DNA from: Candidatus Jettenia ecosi | GTDB taxonomy: Bacteria > Planctomycetota > Brocadiia > Brocadiales > Brocadiaceae | Direction of reading: 5' to 3' | DNA length: 57,450 nucleotides | Assembly: GCA_005524015.1 (NCBI GenBank) | Contig: SULG01000002.1 | Location: 36,221 to 93,670, forward strand | Shown here: positions 28,843 through 32,346 of the stretch, in pieces | Layout of the letters: every line of letters begins with the position of its first letter | Position numbering within the stretch: the first letter of the stretch is position 1 | Position numbers and translations under genes: made by a program | Notes under the pieces: model-generated | What the model saw: the letters and a program-made list of their open reading frames with translations, nothing else | Databases searched by the model: none | What the model was told of the DNA's origin: nothing

Positions 28843-31800
28843 CTATTTCTTCCTTATAAAACATTTTATTATTTCCATAAGAATGAATGTAAGAGAAGAA
28901 AATCCGAAGATGGCTGCCCAATCCTCTACTCCTAATAAGGTTATCTTGAAGATATCATGAAAGTAAGGGATATAGATAACAGACATCTGCATAGCTAACG
29001 AAAGCGCAATTGCCAATAACAGTTTTTTATTGGTAAAAACACCGATTCTCAAGAGCGAGTGAGTAGCATTTCTGCAGTTAAATGAATGAAACAACTGTGA
29101 AATAACTACAACAAAGAAGGCAATCGTTCTGGCGTGTGCAATATCACCATGTAATTCGTAAGGTATTACTTTGCCGGTAAACCAATTATTGTAGAATGCG
29201 AGAAGTAATGGAATGCCTCCATACAACACATAGAGATAAGCCAAAAGGGTGCTGGATGCTATAAGAAAACTCTGTAACAGGATCAATGCAAAAAATCTTT
29301 TATCCATGAATCGTTTTGCTGAGCCTCTGTCTGACAGGTTTATGGTGCGGGAACCATCTGTATCAGCGCTTAATGCCAATGACGGTAATATATTTGTTAC
29401 CACGCTTATCCATAGTATGTGCAAGGGAAATAATGGCGCCGGGAGTTTGAGAACTAAGGCAAAGAGTATAGCCAGAATCTCGCCGGCATTGCAGGAAAGC
29501 AGGTAGTGGATAGGCTTTCGTATGGTAGCATACATACTCTTTACTTCATCAACAGCTATTTTTGCCACTTCGGCAGCTGCAACACCCATAGGTACTTCTG
29601 TACTTCTCATAAAGAGTTTTATTATTTCCATAATAATGAACGTAAGAGAGGAAAATCCAAAGATTAAAATCCAATCTCCGAGTTCCAAAGGTATCACCTT
29701 AAAAATAGTATCGAAATAAGGGATATAGATAATACTCACTTGCATGGCTAATGAAATCCCAACTGCCAGAAGAAGTTTTTTGTTGGTAAAAGGCCCGATT
29801 GCGAATAATGAACGTCTTGCGTTCCTGCAGTTAAATGATTGAAATAGTTGTGAGATAACCATAACGCAGAAGGCAATCGTTCTGGCCCGCGCAATATCAC
29901 CGCTTAATTCGTAGGATACTGTCTTACCGTTAAACCAGGTATTATAGAATGTATCGAATGCCGCATCAAATCCATACAACACATAGAGATACGCCAGGAG
30001 GGTACTGAATGTTATGAGGAAGCCTTGTAATACAATTAATTTACCAAGACTTCTGTCTATGATTTGTGCTGTTGATCTTCTGGCCTGCCTTCTCATAATA
30101 TGCGGATCTACGGTATCTACACCTAATGCTAATGCCGGTAATCCATCGGTTGCAATGTTGATCCATAATATCTGGATTGGAAATAGGGGGAGAGGAAGAT
30201 TGAATAAGGAGGCAAAGAGCATGGTCAATACTTCACCGGCATTACAGGAAAGCAAGTAGTGGATAGACTTTTTAATGTTATCATAGATACCTCTTCCTTC
30301 TTCAACAGCCGCTACAATAGATGCAAAATTATCATTGGTTATAATAATATCAGATGCCTCTTTCGTAACATCCGTACCGGTAATACCCATAGAGATACCG
30401 ATACTTGCCTCTTTCACAGCAGGGGCGTCATTTACCCCATCTCCGGTCATAGCAACAACGGCGCCTTGTTTCTTCCACGCCCTTACGATCCGGATCTTAT
30501 GCTCAGCAGAGACGCGTGCATACACGGCTATCTTTGGCGCTTCTTTTTCTAAGGTTTCATCAGAGAGGGTATCTAATTCCATTCCATCGATAACCTTTAA
30601 GTTGTCTTTCAGAAATCCCAATTCTTCTCCGATTGCACGTGCAGTATTCTTATGGTCCCCCGTAATCATAACCGTTGTTATACATGCCCTGTGGCAGGTG
30701 GCAACAGCATCTTTGGCTTCCGGCCTGGGAGGGTCAATCATAGCTACGAGTCCGGCAAAGATCATATCCTTTTCAATCGTATCAGGGGTTGGTTTCTCAG
30801 GCAGGTGATCAAGTGTCTTGAATGCTATACCAAGAACGCGTAATGCAGCCCCGGCCATCTTGTTGTTTTCATCCAGGATAACACGGATATCCTCTTCTGT
30901 TAAATTCCTTACGTTCCCTTTGGCATAGATCTTTGTGCAATCCTCCATAATAACGTCCGGAGCTCCTTTGGTAAAAACAAGAAACTCAGGCGGCATACTT
31001 CTCATCGTTGACATCTTTTTCCGGTCGGAATCAAAGGGAAGCTCTGATATCAGGGGAAATTTCTTTTCCAATGCTTCTTTACAAACATCTGCCTTAGCTG
31101 CAGCGCTAATAATAGCGCCCTCCGTAGGATCGCCAATGATTTTCCACGTGCTATCTACTTTTTTAAGATGGGCATTATTACACAATACACCAATTTCGAG
31201 GACCTTCCTGAGTGTTTGATGATCAGTTTCTGAAAGGGGTATGCCCCGATAGGAAAAGTCTCCTGTCGGAGCATACCCTGCTCCCGAAACATCAAAGGTT
31301 TTACCATTGGCAAATATCTTCCTGATCGTCATTTCATTTTGAGTGAGCGTACCTGTCTTGTCTGAGCAAATGACGTTAGCACAACCCAGCGTCTCCACCG
31401 AAGGTAATTTACGGATTAACACATGCCGCCTTACCATACGCTGTACCCCCAGCGCTAAAGCTATTGTTACTATGGCAGGGAGGCCTTCGGGAATAGCAGC
31501 AACGGCAAGGCTGACTGACATGAGGAAAGCCTCTAGTAACGGACCTTTCCTCCATATCTCTAAAAAGAAGATGAGGGCTACAATCCCTAAACATACATAC
31601 ACTAACTTTCTTCCAAATACTTCAAGCTTATGCTGGAGGGGGGTTGCCTCCTTTCTTGCCCCTTGAATAAGACTTGCAATTTTACCCAATTCGGTATGCA
31701 TCCCCGTTGTTACAACAACGTATTTGGCTTTCCCATTTGTTACCGAGGTGCCCATAAACACCATATTTTTTCTATCTCCAATAGGCAAAGAGGGGTTAGG

Positions 31801-32346
31801 AAGGGGTTCTGCAGACTTGATGACCGGCGTCGATTCTCCCGTAAGAGATGCTTCCTGGGTACTTAAACTATAGGAAGAGTATAATCTTCCATCGGCAGGG
31901 ACATAGTCACCGGCATCCAGAAGAACAATATCCCCAGGTACAACGTCCCGGGAAGGGATAGAATGTACTTCGCCATCCCGCGTTACCCGTGAAAAAGGCG
32001 CCGATAGCTTTTGCAGGGCGGCAAGAGATTTTTCAGCACGATATTCCTGGATAAATCCAATAATGGCATTAATAATAACAATAGCAATGATGGCTAATGC
32101 ATCATCCCATTCTTTTAAAACTCCGGAAACTATGGCAGCCGCAATCAATATTAATACAATAAAGTTATTAAATTGTCCCAAAAAAAGCATAAAGGGAGAT
32201 ACACCTTTTTTTTCCTCCAATTGGTTATGCCCGTATTTTTTGAGCCTGTTTTTGACCTCGGCATGGCTAAGGCCTGTATCGGCGTTAGTCTCCAGTTTCC
32301 TTATTACCTCATCAGCTTGCATGGTATACCAGTGCGTGTTATCCAT
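28843..32346 (-). CDS. P-type cation ATPase (Ca2+-ATPase/PMA1-like, P2) with duplicated C-terminal membrane bundle
   Basis: 1167 residues; a normal member has about 880-920. Standard parts: N-terminal cation-ATPase domain (1-70), TGES (169-172), TM4 PEGLPA (286-291), phosphorylated D329 in CSDKTGTLT, hinge [10 protein letters not shown], then TM5-TM10 (694-916). TM5 N702/E705 and TM6 N730/D734 match Ca2+ ligands of SERCA. After a 28-residue linker, TM5-TM10 is repeated without gaps at 945-1167. The second copy keeps N953/E956 but has S981 and N985 in place of N730 and D734, so it has lost TM6 ligands. The linker ([13 protein letters not shown]...[10 protein letters not shown]) resembles the hinge end [10 protein letters not shown]...RGIYDNIKK, so the duplicated block probably started in the P-domain. 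It should export Ca2+ or another divalent cation, or H+; the extra bundle may serve a regulatory or dimer role. Confidence 0.88.

Follow-up and report, generated by a model that had tools for sequence, protein, structure and literature searches.

Few membrane machines are understood as well as P-type ATPases, which often recruit small membrane subunits for support or regulatory roles. To our knowledge, the extra helices in the well-described cases listed below are never a copy of the pump's own TM5-TM10, nor are we aware of any P-type ATPase in which this segment is present twice. Members of the superfamily contain 7 to 12 helices, and those beyond the six-helix core serve a support function (PMC10654040). 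Support helices, phospholamban and sarcolipin in P2A pumps, beta subunits in P2C and P4 pumps, KdpC with KdpB and the 12-helix P5A pumps all provide extra helices or subunits for support, regulation or partner binding (PMC10654040). The solved structures closest to the pump described here are the prokaryotic P2A Ca2+-ATPase LMCA1 of Listeria (PDB 6zhf/9evc), the related SPCA1 (8iwp) and SERCA1, all of which stop after TM10.

The window, a stretch of 57,450 nucleotides from the anammox bacterium Candidatus Jettenia ecosi, contains an ATPase gene that starts with ATG and, on inspection of the open reading frame, has no internal stop (Table 1). Its product resembles LMCA1, SPCA1 and SERCA1 in core, catalytic motifs, TM4/TM5/TM6 ligands and model scores, and differs from them by an additional TM5'-TM10' segment (copy B) behind its own TM5-TM10 (copy A). 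Instead of the ten helices of P2A pumps, the structure models predict 16, ten plus TM5'-TM10', compared with 7 to 12 in the superfamily review (PMC10654040). The protein is thus an otherwise standard P2A ATPase of a shape, with its predicted 16 helices and duplicated TM5-TM10, that is absent from the reviews checked. From sequence and structure models, we give a probability of about 0.55 to the reading that residues 1-916 are the pump, and that copy B is a non-transporting support domain, derived from a tandem P2A array, that would stabilise the pump, regulate it or dock a partner.

Table 1. Features of the doubled ATPase gene and its immediate surroundings, in window coordinates.
Feature	Position	Strand	Evidence
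P2A-type ATPase gene, 1167 aa, doubled TM5-TM10	28843..32346	-	Intact ORF; Pfam and NCBIfam P2A calcium-ATPase models
Original TM5-TM10 of the pump (copy A, residues 694-916) with ligands N702, E705, N730, T733, D734	29599..30267	-	Alignment, Pfam, motifs
Linker with second S5-like stalk helix, residues 917-944	29515..29598	-	Similarity upstream of TM5; predicted helix 923-965; linker recognisable in Loosdrechtia
Copy B, residues 945-1167, extra TM5'-TM10'	28846..29514	-	137/223 identical to copy A; PF00689; omega 0.26; predicted six-helix bundle
TM6' ligand positions, residues 981-986, S-V-V-T-N-I replacing N-I-A-T-D-G	29389..29406	-	Sequence comparison; predicted helix
Copy B loop L7'/8' (outward; residues 1041-1071), with unusual conservation between genera	29134..29226	-	65% vs 43% mean in ordinary pumps
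Remains of TM10 from another P2 ATPase, degenerate and with an in-frame stop, upstream of the gene	32392..32460	-	Third copy of a 66-nt repeat
Gene for an octahaem c-type cytochrome, a conserved operon partner that lies 47 nt downstream of the ATPase	27266..28795	-	Eight CxxCH; PF13447; PDB 4qo5

The core exceeds the cut-offs of two P2A models, TIGR01522 (PMR1-type; 838.6 vs 798.3 bits) and TIGR01116 (SERCA-type; 770.9 vs 703.4). For the P2C Na,K/H,K-ATPase alpha group, the TIGR01106 score of 538.9 lies below the cut-off of 946.1. The catalytic motifs T169GES, D329KTGT and T634GDGVND are present and invariant across the family alignment. Site II ligands are found in TM4 (E287 in PEGLP) and TM6 (N730 and D734). 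At SERCA site I, N702, E705 and T733 are present, and the TM8 Glu is seemingly replaced by Ala843 in a hand alignment; LMCA1 and SPCA1 lack site I. The TM5 Asn/Glu pair of the window pump resembles SERCA, not LMCA1. In LMCA1, site I is occupied by an Arg (PMC11977196). With every catalytic motif and the TM4/TM5/TM6 cation ligands in place, residues 1-916 have the appearance of a complete 10-helix pump in working order. It would probably export Ca2+ or a similar divalent cation, Ca2+ itself being suggested by family membership.

The first-pass annotation had described residues 694-916 and 945-1167 as an in-frame, open duplication that aligns end to end without gaps. The protein alignment bears this out, with 223 of 223 positions aligned and 61% identity. 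In BLASTP the two copies match at 250-270 bits, and the DNA-level repeat between them keeps a constant spacing of 753 nt, which together exclude a chance likeness; DNA identity is 69.5%, falling to 57% at third codon positions. Pfam PF00689 (Cation_ATPase_C) matches the protein twice, with copy B by itself reaching 145 bits (cut-off 27). The ungapped similarity begins about 15 residues upstream of TM5, in the cytosolic stalk S5, so the duplicated unit extends from S5-TM5 to TM10, and the linker residues adjoining TM5' are homologous to the TM5 stalk in copy A. By helix parity, copy B should begin and finish on the cytosolic side, like the original.

The ligand positions of copy B are only partly retained. 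As noted at first pass, the TM5 Asn/Glu pair is kept (Asn702/Glu705 in copy A, Asn953/Glu956 in copy B), and TM6' has Ser and Asn in place of Asn and Asp (Asn730, Thr733 and Asp734 in copy A correspond to Ser981, Thr984 and Asn985 in copy B). Four proteins from two lineages, the window's genus and Ca. Loosdrechtia, carry the doubled structure. The description of copy B as having lost its TM6 ligands fits the window protein and does not extend to the module as a whole: the TM6' segment reads TSTVTDILP in Loosdrechtia, where the Asp is kept, and ISVVTNILP in the window protein. All four proteins, in both lineages, have Ser in place of Asn and Ile in place of Gly in TM6', whereas a change of Asp to Asn is confined to the window's genus; the TM5' Asn/Glu and the TM6' Thr are kept in all four.

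Conservation between the two genera is unevenly distributed along copy B. In the family, S5, TM6 and L6/7 make up the ion site and the link between the membrane and phosphorylation domains. In copy B these parts are conserved at 39%, 62% and 32%, compared with 90%, 94% and 77% in ordinary copies. TM7, TM8 and TM10 show near normal conservation, and TM9 is lower (43% vs 69%). Conversely, the outward L7/8 loop is 65% conserved between the copies B of the two genera, compared with a mean of 43% in ordinary pumps. The ratio of loop to remaining conservation is 1.10 for copy B, a value from one genus pair, compared with a mean of 0.62 (sd 0.17) over 325 pairs, only one of which is higher. The ratio of the coupling parts to TM7-10 is 0.75, below the minimum of 0.97 among the compared pairs.

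Copy B modelled alone forms a six-helix bundle (pLDDT 83, pTM 0.82) whose best PDB matches are the calcium pumps SERCA and SPCA. Modelled at full length (pLDDT 76.8, pTM 0.57), the protein likewise matches calcium pumps; the packing of copy B on the pump is unreliable in this model, since only two alignment rows cover copy B. The models show TM6 of copy A with a break at residue 734, in keeping with an ion site, whereas TM6' is a single unbroken helix. With S5, TM6 and L6/7 released, TM6' substituted and predicted unbroken, and TM7-TM10 and L7/8 held, copy B appears to have given up the ion path and retained the support part. If so, the long-kept spare TM5-TM10 is a natural experiment that separates what transport needs (S5, TM6 and L6/7) from what is useful in itself (TM7-TM10 and L7/8).

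That copy B instead provides a second ion path, or an ion-binding site cooperating with the pump, is very improbable. The TM5' Asn/Glu and TM6' Thr retained throughout, together with the Loosdrechtia Asp, are what such a site would keep, and Asn985 alone would be compatible with ion binding, since Asn can act as a calcium ligand. However, copy B lacks TM4, has lost the TM6' Asn and Gly in all four proteins and the Asp in the window's genus, has a TM6' that is predicted to be unbroken, and has been released from constraint in S5 and L6/7, the parts that couple ATP hydrolysis to the ion site. Without TM4 and with a degenerate TM6, the extra bundle would carry no ions. The proposal made at first pass that the duplicate is a new module is favoured; its variant as a second ion path is disfavoured by the missing TM4 and by the loss from TM6' of Asn, Gly and, in the window's genus, Asp.

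Purifying selection maintains copy B in two anammox genera. Over the four proteins, codon-model omega rises from 0.096 in the core through 0.162 in copy A to 0.262 in copy B, and an omega of 1 is rejected for copy B across the two genera (2dlnL 64). The frame of copy B remained intact through about 1.3 synonymous changes per site, a divergence over which about ten stops are expected under neutrality and none of 2000 simulated copies stayed open. Within the window's genus alone, omega is 0.41 for copy B (2dlnL 5.5) and 0.34 for copy A, indicating milder recent constraint on the C-terminal half as a whole. Part of the selection on copy B may act only against misfolding of the membrane tail.

A decaying duplicate, functionless and still open by chance, was the opposite view put forward at first pass, and it is unlikely. 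Such decay would account for the faster evolution of copy B relative to copy A and the core, for the degeneration of its transport-needed parts, and for a within-genus omega only mildly below 1. It is contradicted by the omega of 0.26 over two genera with omega 1 rejected, by the open frame where about ten stops are expected, and by an L7/8 loop that is more conserved in copy B than in working pumps. Moreover, a truly decaying ATPase fragment next door does carry an in-frame stop. The first-pass annotation had named a dN/dS near 1 together with absence from all relatives as the pattern that would speak against function; the observed omega lies well below 1, and relatives carry copy B without a stop.

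The reading as a support domain is favoured by a module kept open in four genomes of two genera and by the intact and relic ATPase genes beside the locus; against it stand the restriction to two lineages, the weak constraint within the genus, and single-module relatives that run the same operon. In this proposal, TM5'-TM10' would be an added membrane domain tethered by the S5'-linker helix, and its conserved surface, formed by TM7'-TM10' and the L7'/8' loop, would be offered to the pump or to a partner. The domain may stabilise the pump, regulate it, or dock a partner through the conserved outward loop, in a manner similar to the small separate subunits of other P-type ATPases. P2C pumps have a SYGQ motif that is located in L7/8. 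This motif serves alpha/beta assembly (PMC9609216). Alternatively, copy B may form an internal dimer-like interface that replaces contacts between two pump molecules and binds no other partner. Its origin as a copy of the pump's own TM5-TM10 and the retention of TM7-TM10 would suit such an interface. This alternative is possible but doubtful, given that many P2A pumps are monomeric, that no result here points to oligomers, and that in-membrane contact alone leaves the raised conservation of the outward loop unexplained.

The same 1167-residue protein is encoded in all three examined genomes of the window's genus, one of which is a single contig, with copy B 94% identical. Ca. Loosdrechtia aerotolerans (G021) carries a doubled protein of 1175 residues, whose copy B is 57% identical to that of the window. 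None of the other 29 of the 33 family genomes has two modules in one frame. Beyond the reported cases, no tandem TM5-TM10 was found in 75 genomes of the class, in a module search of 392 genomes of the phylum or among the best 80 loci from a broad collection of genomes; nothing was found in viral contigs. Likewise, PF00689 occurs twice in one frame only in the window's genome (G000) and G021 among 149 Planctomycetota genomes. The expectation that no standard P2 ATPase has six such additional C-terminal helices agrees with these searches, in which no comparable protein appeared. In the literature searched, most subscription journals lying outside it, no such TM5-TM10 duplication is described. 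Tandem repeats are prone to misassembly, yet an assembly or annotation artefact has a negligible probability and was rejected: the copies share just 69.5% DNA identity, and the structure recurs in four assemblies, including one that consists of a single contig.

Two other P2 ATPases of the window's genome carry different fusions. One of 1324 aa (L002:1501-5475, contig C102) has a C-terminal ABC-type extracellular solute-binding protein (SBP_bac_1) and an ABC transporter ATPase gene upstream; this fusion is probably real, with similar-length frames (1323-1343 aa) with the ATPase match in G016, G017 and G022. The other, of 1074 aa (L003:1489-4713, contig C41), has a PTS EIIA (PtsN-like) domain fused ahead of the ATPase; its type of ATPase match occurs in similar-length frames in several other family genomes.

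In the module tree, the copies B of both genera form one clade (support 100/100). Independent duplication in the two genera is thereby rejected, and a single duplication is indicated, either before the lineages split or before a transfer between them. Trees of the catalytic core leave the choice between split and transfer unsettled; grouping the four tandem proteins together is not rejected (p-AU 0.56). The full module tree favours an origin of copy B within its own gene (A+B clade, 86/87). When the L7/8-TM8 columns are left out, this clade is not recovered, yet it is not rejected (p-AU 0.228), and in these columns alone copy A of the window's genus joins copy B (100/96). The signal looks like gene conversion between the two halves.

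Three findings point to a former P2A gene array at the locus. In Loosdrechtia, a complete single-module ATPase lies directly upstream of the doubled one. The TM10 relic of the window's genus occupies the same position; it shares 80-83% DNA identity with ATPase 3' ends, and its stop is common to the three genomes of the genus. In G022, which belongs to Loosdrechtia's genus and has a single ATPase here, a 37-nt, 89%-identical ATPase fragment lies between that gene and the cytochrome gene. The extra module probably arose by recombination in this tandem array beside the octahaem cytochrome gene, which would have formed the fusion. Elsewhere in Loosdrechtia, another P2A ATPase (L044:607-2536, G021 contig C22) seemingly lacks the stretch from the end of the P-domain to TM8, with residues 1-576 and the last about 63 residues nearly adjacent, either as a decayed copy or through an assembly gap.

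The neighbouring cytochrome is closely related to PDB 4qo5, a 'hypothetical multiheme protein' (E 5.5e-140), and more distantly to hydroxylamine oxidoreductases. It is present in 24 of the 33 family genomes, at 64-98% identity in the 23 besides the window's. In many genomes (e.g. L130, L135, L136 and L138) it directly follows a single-module P2A ATPase; these Brocadiaceae ATPases are 67-76% identical to the window pump over the first 915 residues and, unlike it, have no second TM5-TM10. The ATPase that it follows in L131 and L132 is of a different P2 kind, only 42-43% identical to the window's, and no pump was found next to the cytochrome in L129, L133, L134 and L137. Given the many single-module neighbours and the exchanged ATPase type, the pairing of pump and cytochrome is wider than the extra module and more constant than the identity of the pump. 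The locus is an old operon of a P2A ATPase and an octahaem cytochrome, and the pairing across Brocadiaceae, including the exchange of ATPase type, suggests a functional link that is apparently undescribed. No study on anammox P-type ATPases was found in the literature, and no paper on structure 4qo5, a passing mention aside. The locus marks an operon of pump and cytochrome that is conserved in anammox bacteria and is apparently uncharacterised.

A more specific form of partner docking is that TM5'-TM10' acts as a built-in subunit whose L7'/8' loop docks the neighbouring cytochrome. It is attractive because the cytochrome is exported to the side on which this loop should lie, and, if true, it would place a cation pump and a redox protein of anammox bacteria in one physical complex. 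It is nevertheless improbable, with related species running the same operon without the module.

Close to the doubled pump there is a YHS-domain gene (window 33148-33507). In both genera, a protein with, judged by eye, a YHS-like start (DPVCGM...FCS..C) followed by a glucan phosphorylase (L043:2328-4166 and L044:2575-4407) adjoins a single-module P2A ATPase.
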